The notes under the pieces were generated by a model. That model was not told where the DNA came from, did no database searches, and was given only the letters and a program-made list of their open reading frames with translations. The translations under genes and the position numbers were made by a program. A stretch of 64,000 nucleotides of DNA from Thermocatellispora tengchongensis (GTDB lineage: Bacteria > Actinomycetota > Actinomycetes > Streptosporangiales > Streptosporangiaceae): the NCBI RefSeq assembly GCF_014202315.1, contig NZ_JACHGN010000012.1, positions 186,001 to 250,000 of the forward strand. The letters run 5' to 3'. Of the stretch, positions 35,791 through 56,475 are shown piece after piece. How positions within the stretch are numbered: the first letter of the stretch is position 1; each line of letters opens with the position of its first letter.

Positions 35791-37275
35791 TCAGCCGGCC
35801 TGGCGGGGTGCGCTGACCTCGGGGGCGTACGCCTCGCTGCCGCGGTACTGCACCCGCCACTCGCCCTGCGACGAGCCGGTGAACCTGCGTTCGAACCGGC
35901 CGTACCTGTCGGTCGTCGCCGAGGCGAGCCTGGTCCACTGCACGCCGTCCGGGTGGCGGTGCAGGATCTCGACCGGCTGGCCGGGGAACGGCGCGTAGTC
36001 GATATAGCCCTTGGGGTCCACCCGGTTCAGCAGCCCGCTCACCCGCACCGTGACCCGGTCGCCGTCGCGGACGCGCTCGACCTTCAGCCCGCTGAACATG
36101 GTCTCCCGCTTCAGCCAGAACACCATCACGCTGGTCACGGTCTGGCCGTCGGCGTTCCGCGCCACGGCGGTGACGGTCCAGCGTCCCGCGGGGTACCAGC
36201 GGTCCAGCCCCCTGGTGGGCAGGAAGCGCCAGGTCTGCCACTCCTCGCCCAGCTCCGACGGCCGTACCTGGAGCTGGTACGCCGGCGCCGCGGCACGCCC
36301 CTCGGCACGGGCCCGCTCGTCCAGCCCGGCCCCCGACCTGGGCCGGGCGGCGGGACGGCCCTGGATCGCCGGACGGCCCTCGACGGCCTGCACCGACGAG
36401 CCCGCCGGCCTGATCTGGGCGTGCTGAGCGGTGAGCGGCGGAATCGGCGCCTGAGGCTCAAGCTGCACGACGTACGGCGGGATCTGCAGCCACGACCCCG
36501 GCTCCTGCGGGACGGGGAGAACCTGCTGGGCGGGCTGCGGAACCTGGCTCCCCGGGGACGGCTGAGGCAGGGGCGCCTGAGGCAGGGGCCACTGGTACTG
36601 CCCAGTGACCGGCGGCGCCGACTGGGCGGGCTGGGCAGGCTGGGCGGGGACCTGCGGCTGCGCGGGCTGGACCGCCTCGGGGTCCTGCGAGAGGTCCTGC
36701 TGGAGGTCCTGCTGGGCGGGCTTGGGCGACTTGGGGTGCTTGGGCTGCTCGGCCTGCTTGGACTGCTCGGCCTGCTTGGGTTTCTCGCCCTGCTTCGGCT
36801 GCTTGGACTGCTTCGGCGGCCCGGCCTGCTGCGGCAGGGGCTGAGGCTGGGGCTGGACGACGGGGGCGGACGGCTCTGGCTGGGCGGGGACCTGCTGGGC
36901 GGAGTCGGGCTGCACGGGCTGGGCGGGCTGTGCGGGATTGGCGGGTTGCGCGGGCTGGGCGGGGTCCGGGGCGGGGATCGGAGGCGGCGGGGACGACAGG
37001 GGCGGCGTCGGCTGCGCGTGGGGCCGCTGGGCCTGGGCCCCGCCGTGCCTGCTGGGCTCGACCTTGATCGTCACCCCGTCCCGGCCGCTGGCGCCGCGGG
37101 CCACGACCTCGATCACCATCCGCACCGACCCCTTGGGCCCGACGGTCGGGGACATCGGCCGCAGGCTGATGGACCTGATCTCAAGGCCCTCCGCGGCCGC
37201 GGGCGGGGCCTGGACGAGTATCGGCGCGACGAGCGCACTCGCCGCCAGCGATGTGAGAAGAATCCTCCTGCTCAT
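35791..37275 (-). CDS. Secreted protein with long Pro/Gln repeat region
   Basis: A 494-residue exported protein I cannot assign. It has a signal peptide (about 1-27). A short N-terminal beta domain ending near VTIKVEPS follows, then about 220 residues dominated by PAQPAQP, PKQ and PKQAEQ repeats. The C-terminal part (about 310-494) looks like two Ig-like domains, the last containing YGRFERRFTGSSQGEWRVQYRG. The repeat region suits a flexible wall-crossing linker. No strong ribosome site precedes ATG 37275. Confidence 0.72.
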   Translation of the reverse strand: MSRRILLTSLAASALVAPILVQAPPAAAEGLEIRSISLRPMSPTVGPKGSVRMVIEVVARGASGRDGVTIKVEPSRHGGAQAQRPHAQPTPPLSSPPPPIPAPDPAQPAQPANPAQPAQPVQPDSAQQVPAQPEPSAPVVQPQPQPLPQQAGPPKQSKQPKQGEKPKQAEQSKQAEQPKHPKSPKPAQQDLQQDLSQDPEAVQPAQPQVPAQPAQPAQSAPPVTGQYQWPLPQAPLPQPSPGSQVPQPAQQVLPVPQEPGSWLQIPPYVVQLEPQAPIPPLTAQHAQIRPAGSSVQAVEGRPAIQGRPAARPRSGAGLDERARAEGRAAAPAYQLQVRPSELGEEWQTWRFLPTRGLDRWYPAGRWTVTAVARNADGQTVTSVMVFWLKRETMFSGLKVERVRDGDRVTVRVSGLLNRVDPKGYIDYAPFPGQPVEILHRHPDGVQWTRLASATTDRYGRFERRFTGSSQGEWRVQYRGSEAYAPEVSAPRQAG

Positions 37276-37670
37276 GATCAAGACGGTAGGAACCGCCAGG
37301 TAATGCCCGTGGCCCCGACACACACCCCGCAAGGCAAAACCCGCCCTCGCCGGGACGAGGACGGGCGAGGACGGGCGGACCCGGCGAGGAGCGAACCCGA
37401 CGGAGAGCGGACCCGACGGAGAGCGGACCCGACGGAGAGCGGACCCGACGGAGAGCGGACCCGACGGAGAGCGGACCCCGCGGGGAGCGGACCCCACGGG
37501 CGCGGGCCAGACGGGCGCGGGCCAGACGGGCGCGGGCCAGACGGGCGCGGGCCAGACGGGCGCGGGCCAGACGGCGACGGGCGGGCCATCAGATGGTGCG
37601 GCGGGCCCGATGTCAGGCGCCGTGCTCCCACGCGCGCCCTTCACGGGCCGCCGCCCTCACGGCGCCACGC
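37276..37670. repeat. Gene-free spacer with two 16-bp tandem arrays
   Basis: Array 1 (about 37378-37499) repeats ACCCGACGGAGAGCGG with degenerate outer units. Array 2 (about 37500-37574) repeats GCCAGACGGGCGCGGG five times. Both have a 16-bp period. No gene is present. Confidence 0.9.
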
Positions 37671-51030: not shown

Positions 51031-52629
51031 TCAGGCAAGTGCCACAAGATCGGAAAATTCCTCGCTCCACGCGTCTTCAACTCCGTCCGGTAGCAAGATC
51101 ACCCTATCCGGTTGAAGTGCCTCCACGGCGCCCTCATCATGCGTCACAAGGACGATCGCCCCAGAATAGGACCTAAGTGCCGAAAGTACCTGATCGCGGC
51201 TGGCCGGATCGAGGTTGTTGGTGGGCTCGTCGAGGAGGAGGACGTTGGCACTGGACAGCACGAGCGTGGCCAGCGCCAGCCGGGTCTTCTCACCTCCCGA
51301 CAGCACCCCGGCCGGCTTGTCGACATCGTCACCGCTGAACAGGAAGGACCCGAGAACCTTGCGCAGATCGACGTCGGGGACGTCGGGACCGGCCGAGCGC
51401 ATGTTCTCCAGCACCGTACGCTCCGGGTCGAGCGTCTCGTGTTCCTGGGCGTAGTAGCCCAGCTTGAGGCCGTGGCCGGGGCGCACCTCCCCGGTGTCGG
51501 GCCGCTCCAGGCCGCCGAGCAGGCGCAGCAGCGTGGTCTTGCCCGCGCCGTTGAGGCCGAGGATCACGACCCTGCTGCCCCGATCGACCGCGACATCGAC
51601 GTCGGTGAAGACCTCCAGCGAGCCGTAGGACTTCGACAGCCCCACCGCCGACAGCGGGGTGCGCCCGCACGGCGCCGGCTGCGGGAAGCGCAGCTTGGCG
51701 ACCTTGTCGCTCCTGCGCTCCTCGGTCACCCCGGCCAGCAGCCGCTTGGCCCGCCGCTCCATGTCCTGCGCGGCCTTGGCCTTGGTGGCCTTGGCGCGCA
51801 TCCGGTCGGCCTGCGACAGCAATGCGGACGCCTGCTTCTCGGCGTTGGCGCGCTCGCGCTTGCGGCGCCGCTCATCGGTCTCGCGCTGCGCGAGATAGGC
51901 GGTCCAGCCGACGTTGTACGTATCGATCACACAACGATTGGCGTCGAGGTGCAGGACCTTGTTTACCGTCGCTTCAAGTAGGCCGACATCGTGACTGATG
52001 ATGATCAAACCGCCCTGATGGGAGCGCAAAAAATCACGAAGCCACCCGATTGAATCGGCGTCGAGGTGGTTTGTCGGCTCGTCGAGCAGGAGAGTCTCAG
52101 CTCCGCTGAACAGGATTCTGGCGAGTTCCACCCGCCGCCTCTGCCCACCGGAGAGCGTTTCCAACGGCTGGGAGATGACCCGGTCGGGCAGGCCGAGGCT
52201 GGAGGCGATCGAGGCGGCCTCGGCCTCGGCCGCGTAGCCCCCCAGCACGTGCAGCCGGTCCTCCAGCCGCCCGTACGCGCGCACGGCCCGGTCGCGGGTG
52301 CGGTCGTCGGCGCTGGCCATCGCCTTCTCGGCGGCCCGCAGCTCGCGCAGCACCTCGTCCAGCCCCCGGGCGGACAGGATGCGGTCGCGCGCGAGCACGC
52401 TCAGGTCGCCGGTGCGCGGGTCCTGCGGCAGGTAGCCCACGCTCCCGGTCGTGGTGACGGTGCCGGCCGCGGGCACGCCCTCACCGGCGAGCACCCTGGT
52501 CAGCGTGGTCTTGCCCGCGCCGTTACGGCCCACGAGGCCGATCTTGTCGCCGGGGTTGACGCGGAAGGTGGCCTTCTCAAGAAGCAGCCGCGCGCCCGCG
52601 CGCAGTTCGATGTCGGTGGCAATGATCAT
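51031..52629 (-). CDS. ABC-F family ATPase
   Basis: A 532-residue soluble protein with two ATPase domains: Walker A GRNGAGKTT and GLNGAGKTT; signatures LSGGQRRR and LSGGEKTR. A basic, helical linker (about 240-310, RRRKRERANAEKQ) joins them, and there is no membrane domain. ABC-F proteins bind the ribosomal E site and either rescue stalled ribosomes or protect against antibiotics. Which applies here is not determined by the sequence. Its upstream region has a possible leader peptide and pyrimidine-rich tracts that could mask the ribosome site. Confidence 0.92.
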   Translation of the reverse strand: MIIATDIELRAGARLLLEKATFRVNPGDKIGLVGRNGAGKTTLTRVLAGEGVPAAGTVTTTGSVGYLPQDPRTGDLSVLARDRILSARGLDEVLRELRAAEKAMASADDRTRDRAVRAYGRLEDRLHVLGGYAAEAEAASIASSLGLPDRVISQPLETLSGGQRRRVELARILFSGAETLLLDEPTNHLDADSIGWLRDFLRSHQGGLIIISHDVGLLEATVNKVLHLDANRCVIDTYNVGWTAYLAQRETDERRRKRERANAEKQASALLSQADRMRAKATKAKAAQDMERRAKRLLAGVTEERRSDKVAKLRFPQPAPCGRTPLSAVGLSKSYGSLEVFTDVDVAVDRGSRVVILGLNGAGKTTLLRLLGGLERPDTGEVRPGHGLKLGYYAQEHETLDPERTVLENMRSAGPDVPDVDLRKVLGSFLFSGDDVDKPAGVLSGGEKTRLALATLVLSSANVLLLDEPTNNLDPASRDQVLSALRSYSGAIVLVTHDEGAVEALQPDRVILLPDGVEDAWSEEFSDLVALA

Positions 52630-52759: not shown

Positions 52760-53050
52760 GCCCCCGGCCGTTCACCCGCCCGGCGCAGATCCCCCACCCG
52801 CCCCGGCCATCGGCCACCCACCCGGCCCCGATCACCCGCCCGGCTCAGCCGCCGGTTACCCACCCGGCGCCGATCACCCGCCCGGCTCGGCCGCCGGTTA
52901 CCCACCCAGCGCCGATCACCGCCCCGGCTGCCGGTCACCCACCGCCCCAGCCCACCCCTCCGGCCCGACTGCCGGTCACCCGCCAGCCCGCTCACCCACC
53001 CCGGCGCTGACCGCCCGCCCCGGCGCTGACCGCCCGCCCGGCTCGCGCGC
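52760..53050. repeat. Degenerate ~42-bp tandem repeats downstream of the acVLRF1 gene
   Basis: Units built on GATCACCCGCCCGGCTC and GCCGGTTACCCACCC repeat roughly every 42 bp, with more diverged copies on both sides. The stop of the acVLRF1 gene (TCA at 53056-53058) is in GGCTCACCCACCCGGC, a sequence of the same kind. No gene is present between 52720 and 53055. Confidence 0.75.
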
Positions 53051-53055
53051 CCGGC

Positions 53056-55194
53056 TCACCCACCCGGCCCGGGTCGCTCGCCGGGCTCGACGACCCGCAC
53101 GCGCACGGCCCGGAAGTCGCGGGGCGTGTCCTGGAGCACCTGGAGCCGCGGGTCGGGCACGGTGAGGAACGGCCCGGCCTCCAGTGCGAACAGCGGGTCC
53201 AGCCGCCGGTCGCCCCGCAGCGCGTCCACCGACCGCCGGTCGCCGCCGAACACCACCGCCTCCAGCCTCCCCAGCCACGGCAGCAGCACCCGCGCCGCCG
53301 CATCGGCCGCCGCCTCCCGAGCCTGCCCCGCCTGCTGCCGCCTCCGCCGCGCGAACCGCTGCTGCGACCACCCGCCCGCCGCCGTGCGCCCCTGCACCAG
53401 CCGCGCCCCCACCTTCGACGCCACCAGCCGCTCCCCCTCGAACACCCCCGCCGCGTAGCCGCCCAGCCGCACCAGCACCACACCCACACACCGCTCCCGC
53501 AGCGCATGCGCCACCACCATCCCGACCAGCTCCCGGCCAAGATCCCCACCGAGGTCCCCGCCAAGATCGGGGCCGAGACCGAGATCGGGACCGGGGCCAC
53601 GATCCGGGCCGGGACCGGGACCGAGATCCGGGCCGGGACCGGGACCGGGATCCGGGCCGGGACCGGGACCGAGATCCGGGCCAAGGCCGCCCTCCCGGCC
53701 CTGGCGATCCTGGCGGGTCGCCGGGGCCCCAGCGGACCCGATCCCCCGCCTCCGCTCGCCGGGCACACCATCCCCTTCCGGCAGGCCCGCGTGCCCCAGA
53801 CCGGCCTCGCGAAATGCCGACGACCCGGCCAGACCACCCTCCGACCTCCGCTCGCCCGGCACACCATCCCCTTCCGGCAGGCCCGCGTGCCCCAGACCGG
53901 CCTCGCGAAATGCCGACGACCCGGCCAGACCACCCCCCGACCTCCGCTCGCCCGGCACACCATCCCCTTCCGTGGGGAGAGCCCGCCCCTCCCCATCCGG
54001 CCCGAGGTCTGAGCCGGAGGCATCGCCCCGGCCCATGGGGACGTCCCCATCCGTGCGCGAGCCGGTCACACCAGGGGGTGCCGGGTCATCGCCGCCACCG
54101 GAACCGTCCTCCCTCCGGGCGGACCGGCCAAAGGCGGCTACGCGGCCCCTGGCTGGGGCGGAGGGCCCCCAGGAAGGACGATCCGGGGTCACACCATGGC
54201 CGGCATCCCCGCCCCGCTCAGAGCCCTCCTGAGCCGCGCGGCGGGAGGCCGGAGCCGGCGCTGGAGCAGGCGACCGATCCGTGCCGGAGACAGGGTGCCA
54301 CTCCGAGTTCGGCACCCCGTCTTGCCCGGCCGGCGAAGGATCCGTGCCGGAGACAGGGTGACGCTCCGAACTCGGCACCCCCGCCTCCCCAGCCGGCGAA
54401 CGATCCGGACCAGAGGCACGGCCCCACTCCGAACTCGGCACCCCCTCCTGCCCGGCCGGCGAGCAATCCGGACCAGAGGCACGACCCCACTCCGAACTCG
54501 GCACCGCCTCCTCCCCAGCCGACGGCCGGGCGGGGCCGGTACTCCGGTCGCGGGCGGTCTCCGGGCCCGGCTCGGCCGGCGTGGCATCCTCGTGCTCCGG
54601 GCGGGCGCACCCCTCACCATCGGGGCCATGATCGGAGCCGCGCGCCCTGCCCCTGCCGGGCAGGAGATCGCCACCCGGCACAAGGTCGCCCAACCCCTCC
54701 CCGCCGGGCACGAAGTCCGTGCCTGGCGCCCCTTCCCCAGGGGACACCCGATCCCCGGAAGGCACAGCGCCCACAGCTCCCACGTCGCCCGCAGGAACGA
54801 TCTCCCTGCCGACCGCCAAATGCCCATCCGGCACCCGGCCCTCAGGGACCACCCGATCCCCGTCGGACATCGCGCCCTCGCGGGCCACCTGGTCCCCATC
54901 CGGCACCACCCCCTTGCCGGACACCGGTTCCCCATCCGGCACCTCCCCGGCAACCACCCCCTTGCCCGGCGCCGCGTCCCCGCCCGGGAGGGGTGGGAAG
55001 GGGATGTGGATCTCGGCGGTGGCGCCGTCGGTGGCGGTGAGGTGGAGGGTGCCGGGGGCGGCGGTGACGGTGAAGGGGCCGTGGCGGGTGCGGAAACCGG
55101 TGATCCAATGATTCAGGCGCTCGGGGGCGACGGTTACCCAGCGTCCACCACCGCGTGCCGGGCCCGTGGCCCGGGAGTCCGCTCGGCCGCTCAC
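53056..55194 (-). CDS. acVLRF1-type peptidyl-tRNA release factor with a giant insert
   Basis: The ends match the actinobacterial Vms1-like release factor (acVLRF1) family, which frees stalled peptides from ribosomes. The N-terminal ~72 residues read GGRWVTVAPERLNHWITGF to IPFPPLPGG. The C-terminal 159 residues hold VLVRLGGYAAGVFEGERLVA, the Gln-containing loop AAGGWSQQRFARRR, and FGGDRRSVDAL. Family members are normally about 200-250 residues; this one is 712 because about 480 residues of repeats separate the two parts. GTG 55194 is my best start; GTG 55218 is equally in frame and neither has a good ribosome site. Confidence 0.78.
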   Translation of the reverse strand: MSGRADSRATGPARGGGRWVTVAPERLNHWITGFRTRHGPFTVTAAPGTLHLTATDGATAEIHIPFPPLPGGDAAPGKGVVAGEVPDGEPVSGKGVVPDGDQVAREGAMSDGDRVVPEGRVPDGHLAVGREIVPAGDVGAVGAVPSGDRVSPGEGAPGTDFVPGGEGLGDLVPGGDLLPGRGRARGSDHGPDGEGCARPEHEDATPAEPGPETARDRSTGPARPSAGEEAVPSSEWGRASGPDCSPAGQEGVPSSEWGRASGPDRSPAGEAGVPSSERHPVSGTDPSPAGQDGVPNSEWHPVSGTDRSPAPAPAPASRRAAQEGSERGGDAGHGVTPDRPSWGPSAPARGRVAAFGRSARREDGSGGGDDPAPPGVTGSRTDGDVPMGRGDASGSDLGPDGEGRALPTEGDGVPGERRSGGGLAGSSAFREAGLGHAGLPEGDGVPGERRSEGGLAGSSAFREAGLGHAGLPEGDGVPGERRRGIGSAGAPATRQDRQGREGGLGPDLGPGPGPDPGPGPGPDLGPGPGPDRGPGPDLGLGPDLGGDLGGDLGRELVGMVVAHALRERCVGVVLVRLGGYAAGVFEGERLVASKVGARLVQGRTAAGGWSQQRFARRRRQQAGQAREAAADAAARVLLPWLGRLEAVVFGGDRRSVDALRGDRRLDPLFALEAGPFLTVPDPRLQVLQDTPRDFRAVRVRVVEPGERPGPGG
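53536..54978 (-). repeat. In-frame repeat insert within the acVLRF1 gene
   Basis: The insert holds several tandem arrays: 24-bp units (53601-53682; 8 codons, GPGPGPDL), 96-bp units (53749-53844, 53845-53940 and a partial third; 32 codons) and 63-bp units (anchors at 54308, 54371, 54434, 54497; 21 codons). All are multiples of three, and the frame stays open for the whole 1.44 kb. Confidence 0.88.
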
Positions 55195-55302
55195 GGTACG
55201 TGAGGTTACCCTCGTCACCGCGTGTTCGAAGAGTGGGCGAAATGTGGATGAACTTAGCCTCACGGAGCGTATATCACTCCCTGTAGGGAGCATCATCTGA
55301 AC

Positions 55303-56475
55303 GTGCCGGGCAGAACTCCTCTCCTTCCGCCCGCCGAGGCGCAGATGCCCTCGGCCGTCTCGCCGATCGTCGATCTCGACACCGGCGGGGTCATCGCGCT
55401 GTGGGCGGCAGCCGAACCAACCGGCGGTCCCGGCGGCGCGCCGGCCGTCGTCGATGTGGCTCGTGCCGCCCTCCACGCGGCGAGGCGCGAGACCTCACTC
55501 CCCCTCGTGCTGCGGATCTCCGCGCAGTCGGTGATCGACGCCGGGTCGGCCGGGCTGGCTCCCCTGCACGAGGCCCTGCGTGTGGCCGGACGCCGCCCGC
55601 GGGAGGTGATTCTGACCGTCGAGGGCGGCTTCGCGCCGGGTGACCGGCGGCGGCTGCTGGCCGCGCTGGACGGTCTGCGCGCGATCGGCTACCTGGTGGC
55701 GCTGGGGGACGTGGGCACGGGCCACATGCCCATGGACCTGGCCGCCGACGCGGCGCCGTACCTCATGGTGCTCTCGCCGCGCCTGGTGGGGCGGGTGCCG
55801 CGCGACCCGCGCGCCGAGGCGCTGGGGCGCTCGCTGGCCGCGCTGGCCCGCAACGTGGGCGCGCACGTGCTGGTGCCGGAGGTGAGCGAGGAGGCTCAGC
55901 TCGCGGCGGTGCGGTCGTGGGAGGTGCGCCTGGCGCACGGCCCGCTGCTCAAGCCGGGCCCGTCGGGACGGGTGCACGTGCCGCTGCCGGTGCCGGAGGA
56001 GGCGCCGATCGCGGGCATGCTCGGCCCGCGGGTGCAGGAGATGCTGCTGCCCGCGGTCACCATGGACGAGCACGCCACCGCCGAGGAGGCGATAGAGGCG
56101 TTCGGCAGCGAGCCCTCGATCACCAGCGTGATCCTGGTGGACGAGTACCAGCGCCCGCGCGGCAGCCTGGACCGCAGCCGGTTCATGCTCTCGGTGGCCA
56201 GCAGGTACGGCTACGCCCTGCACGGTAAGAAGCCCGCCATCCGCCTGGCCGACCCGCCCCGTACGGTGCCCAAAACGACCCCCGCCATCGCGGCGATGCA
56301 GGTGGCCGGCCGGGACAACGAGCGGGTCTACGACGATCTCGTGGTGACCGACGAGATGGGCCGGTGCATGGGCATCCTGCGGGTGAGCGACCTGATCCGG
56401 CAGGTGTCGGGGCAGCCGGGCCTGGCCCCGAGCGGGCCGCTGAACTCCCCCGGACGGCACCAGCGCGGCGCCTGA
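55303..56475 (+). CDS. Degenerate EAL domain with C-terminal CBS domains
   Basis: A 390-residue cytoplasmic protein. The first half (about 20-230) follows the EAL phosphodiesterase fold but lacks its catalytic residues: the E-x-L motif is absent, DDFG is GDVG, and EGVE is PEVS. Activity on cyclic-di-GMP is therefore unlikely. The second half holds CBS-type repeats (MLLPAVTMDEHATAEEAIEA and VVTDEMGRCMGILRVSDLI), which usually bind adenine nucleotides. The GTG at 55303 has AGGGAG twelve bases upstream; an ATG at 55345 is an alternative. It is divergent from the acVLRF1 gene. Confidence 0.78.
   Translation: MPGRTPLLPPAEAQMPSAVSPIVDLDTGGVIALWAAAEPTGGPGGAPAVVDVARAALHAARRETSLPLVLRISAQSVIDAGSAGLAPLHEALRVAGRRPREVILTVEGGFAPGDRRRLLAALDGLRAIGYLVALGDVGTGHMPMDLAADAAPYLMVLSPRLVGRVPRDPRAEALGRSLAALARNVGAHVLVPEVSEEAQLAAVRSWEVRLAHGPLLKPGPSGRVHVPLPVPEEAPIAGMLGPRVQEMLLPAVTMDEHATAEEAIEAFGSEPSITSVILVDEYQRPRGSLDRSRFMLSVASRYGYALHGKKPAIRLADPPRTVPKTTPAIAAMQVAGRDNERVYDDLVVTDEMGRCMGILRVSDLIRQVSGQPGLAPSGPLNSPGRHQRGA

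Follow-up and report, generated by a model that had tools for sequence, protein, structure and literature searches.

Passages of PMC6514570 describe the acVLRF1 family with its GGxSQ loop and the arginines, characteristic of the VLRF-1 clade, in the helix following the loop, and report that in acVLRF-1 a short distinctive N-terminal extension replaces the stop-codon-binding domain. For Vms1, a eukaryotic VLRF-1 protein, accounts of the chemistry differ between a hydrolase and an endonuclease in parts of PMC6514570 and PMC12868832, and the latter, a review, names Vms1 and Arb1 jointly as mediating peptidyl-tRNA cleavage in a passage on this process. Coding satellites with unit lengths that are multiples of three have been described in prokaryotes; sections of PMC6749651 define them by at least four tandem units of 10 to 200 nt.

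In the 64,000-nt stretch of DNA analysed here (the window), an ORF of 806 aa on the minus strand (53056-55476) is stop-free from end to end and encodes an acVLRF1-type protein. Many homologues open with M(S/T)xRPAxGGGRWV, which makes the GTG at 55194 the likely translation start, and we infer that it is used; alternative start codons lie 5' of it at 55218, 55263, 55293, 55296, and 55476, all of them possible. The features of the locus, in window coordinates, are as follows.

51031-52629, minus strand: ABC-F ATPase gene, directly 3' of acVLRF1, recognised by profile and PDB matches
52767-53089, strand not assigned: further imperfect repeats, from the last part of acVLRF1 into the intergenic gap towards the ABC-F gene
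53056-55194, minus strand: acVLRF1 gene; counted from the likeliest start, 712 codons and a stop
53059-53532, minus strand: catalytic VLRF1 (release-factor-type) domain, 158 codons, PF18859, GC3 95%
53362-53376, minus strand: GGWSQ catalytic-loop motif (family GGxSQ), residues 607-611 of 712
53519-53568, minus strand: second 24-bp array, 2.1 copies, spanning the linker end and the first catalytic-domain codons
53533-54984, minus strand: expanded in-frame linker separating the N-terminal from the catalytic domain, 484 codons, stop-free
53568-53682, minus strand: 6/24-bp Gly-Pro-Asp array, 24-bp unit in 4.0-4.8 copies, 93% matches (TRF)
53743-53972, minus strand: 96-bp (32-aa) array, 2.3-2.4 copies, 97% matches (TRF)
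54269-54521, minus strand: 63-bp (21-aa) array, 4.0 copies, 84% matches, indel-free (TRF)
54526-54571, minus strand: 18-bp array, about 2.5 (2.4-2.6) copies, imperfect, containing an indel (TRF)
54875-54948, minus strand: 36-bp array, 2.1 copies, 84% matches (TRF)
54985-55194, minus strand: N-terminal domain (the family-typical short N-terminal extension), 70 codons, placed by an N-domain HMM and alignments
55303-56475, plus strand: EAL/CBS-domain gene, divergent neighbour of acVLRF1

Profile scores above the curated cut-offs place the protein in the family. The ORF matched the acVLRF1 models of Pfam (PF18859; E 9.3e-44, 149.2 bits against a cut-off of 27.1) and NCBIfam (NF041024; E 1e-74, 250.7 bits against a cut-off of 125), and at E ≤0.001 its only Pfam matches were PF18859 and, in the same region, the related baeRF family 10. 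The short extension that stands in for the stop-codon-binding domain is present, a home-made N-domain HMM matching the residues that correspond to 55143-54991. In the alignment, G607, G608, S610, and Q611 of the catalytic loop are invariant and W609 is nearly so; R613, R616, R617, and R618 in the following helix are likewise invariant, as are the stretches AGG, SQ, and RFARRR. A role as a peptidyl-tRNA hydrolase in ribosome rescue is presumed for the protein. The window keeps the consensus residue at each of the 63 alignment columns that reach at least 90% conservation among 59 homologues, the GGxSQ loop and the arginine-rich helix included, and since 30 homologues scored in a leave-one-out manner kept 60 to 63 of 63 to 65 conserved columns, the window protein appears as intact as its relatives. 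The weak codon bias of the insert might be taken as a sign of a decaying pseudogene that merely happens to be stop-free so far, but the 63 intact columns, a GC3 of 95% in the catalytic domain, the stop-free ORF, and the recovery of one acVLRF1 match from the genome, with 12 of 61 first-look candidates scored, make this very unlikely.

Linkers were compared across 190 loci, comprising 109 from in-frame query searches (29 + 80), 80 further regions from Streptosporangiaceae genomes, which are part of the matches in at least 166 of 297 genomes, and the window. Removal of identical sequences left 159 distinct ones, 158 besides the window; the window's genus is represented by one genome. With linker length taken as the distance separating the matches to two HMMs built here, the window has 490 residues, whereas the 158 others have a median of 10, a 95th percentile of 47, and a reliable maximum of 77 (L041). 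Raw values of 81 (L307) and 69 (L105), among the three largest after the window, overstate the linker, as the N-domain match was only partial there. At 30 class-level loci, partly from the same genomes, the linker did not exceed 35 residues. The window protein lacks the compact hinge typical of homologues, which is not stated as a defining feature of acVLRF1 (490 against a median of 10). Its total length is 712 residues, compared with about 210 to 270 in most homologues. Longer linkers recur in other lineages (66 residues in L064, 77 in L041), and some, such as that of L064, look repetitive by eye; inspection by eye revealed no motif common to these and the window linker. A tree built from both domains joined together places the window as sister to sequences with linkers of 11, 11, and 77 residues, with moderate support at the fork (91/77); one of these sisters, L039, is identical in sequence to L076 from Spongiactinospora rosea. 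The hinge thus appears to be about fifty-fold longer than usual, while the working parts of the protein look untouched.

The first-pass annotation had proposed an in-frame repeat expansion within an acVLRF1-type gene, and the expansion is real, with the ends of the 484-codon insert lying 6 and 3 bases from those given there. Its placement between the N-terminal and catalytic domains holds in the alignment with acVLRF1 homologues; these do not share a long linker (median 10, reliable maximum 77 in the 158 others), and the ORF contains neither a stop nor a frameshift that would mark a broken gene. The description of the insert as 1.44 kb of repeats needs qualification: arrays with a TRF score of at least 50 span 715 of its 1452 nt, so that arrays make up about half of it and degenerate or low-complexity sequence the remainder. 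The units of 24, 63, and 96 bp listed there were recovered by TRF together with arrays of 36, 18, and 6 bp, and the best-scoring period is divisible by three everywhere in the insert, the one departure being a weak overlapping 31-bp TRF row (57% matches) within the 96-bp array. Copies of the 96-bp unit do differ only slightly, at 1 of 96 nt between the two full copies, but the array has merely 2.4 of them. Because of this low copy number and the 84% matches of the 63-bp array, growth appears only partly recent; the earlier suggestion of recent growth fits the 96-bp array and perhaps the 24-bp array but not the rest. Near-identical 96-bp copies are difficult for short reads, and in a draft genome of 62 contigs the repeat region could in part be an assembly artefact with a wrong copy number. 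We consider this extremely unlikely, given that recognisable arrays account for only about half of the insert and that the frame is intact on both sides.

How far the insert behaves as coding sequence can be gauged from its frame and composition. A stop-free frame across the insert exists on the plus strand too, so openness alone is weak evidence; under a first-order Markov null built on the insert with the extra copies dropped, 3.9 stops are expected on average and the probability of none is 0.022. GC at the three codon positions is 84/68/76%, and the GC3 of 76% compares with 95% in the catalytic and 86% in the N-terminal domain. A simple gene caller excluded the insert and placed the gene start at 53481. 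The linker has a disorder-like composition, with 73% disorder-promoting residues and a negative Uversky index, in which it differs from both domains, and it probably forms an unstructured tether that is rich in Gly, Pro, and Asp and net acidic. Among the 63-bp copies, silent differences peak in the frame of the gene (17, against 6 to 15 in the five other readings), and 20 of 29 differences are nonsynonymous where 22.6 are expected, a deficit that is non-significant (P 0.16). We read these data as selection acting on the insert at the level of the frame and little at the level of residues, as expected of a disordered linker.

The gene caller's start within the C-terminal part also raises the possibility that translation of the catalytic domain begins independently at an internal codon such as the ATG of ELVGMVV (53520), with the repeats being a dispensable or untranslated spacer. 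The weak codon bias of the insert and a G-rich stretch seen by eye upstream of this ATG would fit such an arrangement. However, both domains lie in one ORF at 188 of the 190 loci, window included, and the ORFs of the remaining two run off the 5' end of the sequence; moreover, the N-terminal domain retains the family residues, the best periods of the insert are multiples of three, and its frame of 484 codons is open. Separate production of the catalytic domain is therefore unlikely, and we infer that the full-length 712-residue protein is made.

Whether tandem arrays in this genome are generally held in frame was assessed in sixty 20-kb genome regions plus the window (1.26 Mb), with genes called by a simple codon-usage model and arrays by TRF; five regions chosen at BLAST hits were retained. 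Periods were divisible by three in 62 of 64 arrays well inside called genes versus 24 of 53 strict intergenic arrays. At a score of at least 100, the counts were 19 of 19 versus 9 of 26 (Fisher P 4e-6), the intergenic proportion being the chance level. Two further classes were treated separately: arrays at gene edges (28 of 50 divisible by three) and arrays that lie outside a called gene yet connect to it through an open frame (36 of 49). The 24-, 63-, and 96-bp arrays of the insert belong to these classes and are therefore absent from the test. Relatives contributed too few arrays to be of use (4 of 5 in called genes, 2 of 5 strict intergenic). These data support selection for the reading frame acting on arrays in genes, as the first-pass annotation had argued for the insert; the periods outside genes, described there as mostly not multiples of three, are divisible by three at the chance level (9 of 26). 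Further repeat-bearing genes occur. A Gln/Lys/Pro-rich called gene of the window (35791-37155, minus strand) carries in-frame 18-bp arrays, and 16-bp and 15-bp arrays just upstream of its called start (37375-37574) share its open frame, which makes that start questionable. Elsewhere in the same genome, a 1036-codon called gene (L232:6983-10090, minus strand) contains a 99-bp array of 2.9 copies in frame, and a very repeat-rich region picked for a BLAST hit (L216, G000:C2:170001-190000) has called genes with in-frame arrays of 72, 48, 36, and 18 bp.

The arrays seem to have arisen where they stand. Grouping by sequence divides the 90 strong array units into 82 groups, and the insert resembles the rest of the genome in just seven pieces of 55 to 115 nt each; such diversity and such short matches fit a local origin rather than a mobile satellite and leave a transposed satellite family unsupported. 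The 24-bp Gly-Pro-Asp unit is shared with arrays in two regions (L203 and L207) that were picked for those matches. Loss of NucS mismatch repair is likewise unsupported as a cause of repeat growth, since a NucS match above the cut-off was found here and in all 21 genomes searched. Strong arrays (score of at least 100) numbered 57 in 55 of the genome's own 20-kb regions, the five of sixty chosen at BLAST hits being omitted, and 21 in 38 regions of relatives (51.8 versus 27.6 per Mb; Mann-Whitney P 0.12, binomial 0.015). The difference was 142.7 versus 64.5 per Mb for arrays scoring at least 60 (Mann-Whitney P 0.001) and 30.0 versus 11.8 per Mb for arrays with four or more copies (P 0.05). The genome is thus about twofold richer in arrays than the sampled relatives, with mixed statistical support. 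The idea that it is uniquely repeat-rich is weakened by an equally rich relative (G063, 10 in 200 kb). Eighty named loci, all around acVLRF1, had 39.9 strong arrays per Mb, and the window itself is a dense spot with 12 strong arrays in 64 kb.

We consider it likely that the locus encodes a working acVLRF1 whose hinge reached 484 residues through successive tandem duplications in place, with events that were not multiples of three removed by selection. Replication slippage or unequal exchange may have produced the duplications. Additions at the hinge would be tolerated, because hinge length varies across the family, whereas events out of frame would sever the catalytic domain and be purged. The two folded domains would probably keep the presumed role of the family, in which the nascent chain is released from its tRNA on large subunits that have stalled. 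The sheer size of the linker and the longer linkers of other lineages (66 and 77 residues) could alternatively mean that length has been positively selected, the linker serving as a functional tether or interaction module that reaches, for instance, a ribosome partner. This seems improbable, as no motif common with the linkers of other lineages was seen by eye, changes between copies look near neutral, and arrays are common in other genes and in intergenic DNA of this genome. With similarly low expectation, one may speculate that an acidic tether of variable length allows both domains to engage remote sites on the large subunit, or a partner such as ABC-F, and that repeat number tunes rescue from strain to strain.

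One candidate partner would be the product of the gene next door. The window ABC-F protein scored barely above the cut-off of NF000355, and its PDB relatives include YheS, EttA, and yeast ARB1. The gap between the two genes, 426 bp here, is itself filled with imperfect repeats. A same-strand downstream ABC-F match (E ≤1e-30) occurs within about 5 kb at 38 of 80 named loci and within 700 nt of acVLRF1 at 29 of 80, with a gap in these 29 of 29 to 396 bp as measured from the end of the domain match. Among 30 class-level loci with 1.5 kb of downstream sequence, ABC-F was present in 6 of 7 from Streptosporangiaceae and in 0 of the 23 belonging to other families, though a few named loci beyond Streptosporangiaceae (e.g., L128, L144, and L145) carry this neighbour. 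The terms "ABC-F" and "ABCF" are absent from the main text of PMC6514570, and among the open-access papers listed we found none on acVLRF1 with ABC-F. As a lead, the adjacency recalls the yeast pair Vms1-Arb1 and might point to a parallel with eukaryotic ribosome quality control. The EAL/CBS-domain gene on the other side of acVLRF1 in the window is likewise a common neighbour: a match lay within the flank at 41 of the 80 named loci, at 40 of them on the opposite strand.

The case illustrates the extent to which a protein belonging to a core process can lengthen at a tolerant hinge with no measured conserved residue lost. If the 484-residue version works, the acVLRF1 domains need only to be tethered and not to be close, and the locus provides a natural test of this. 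The sampled genome, with arrays both in genes and between them, moreover offers an internal control for frame selection on tandem repeats.

Compared with the acVLRF-1 family (PF18859; NF041024, "acVLRF1 family peptidyl-tRNA hydrolase"), the window protein shares the N-terminal and catalytic domains, the GGxSQ loop, the arginine-rich helix, and the 63 conserved columns, but differs in its linker of 484 residues, against a median of 10 and a largest reliable value of 77 in 158 others. With Vms1/ANKZF1, it has in common the VLRF-1 clade, as outlined in passages of PMC6514570, and an ABC-F gene adjoins acVLRF1 here; in contrast to Vms1/ANKZF1 and Arb1, the flanking domains are different and the link observed here is one of gene adjacency. 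The insert resembles the coding satellites described in parts of PMC6749651 in having intragenic tandem units, lengths that are multiples of three, and predicted amino acid repeats. By count alone, the 63-bp (4.0 copies) and 24-bp (4.0-4.8) arrays reach the minimum of four copies given in those parts, and the 96-bp (2.3-2.4), 36-bp (2.1), and 18-bp (2.4-2.6) arrays fall below it. Unlike the satellites described there, several unrelated arrays are stacked here in the hinge of one translation factor, and roughly half of the insert has lost any recognisable array structure. Among the open-access papers listed, we found none on repeat expansion in acVLRF1; since the family and coding satellites are both described, we view the locus as an extreme variant of a known family produced by a known process. 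With family and process known and a linker of exceptional size, it is a striking case rather than a new system.
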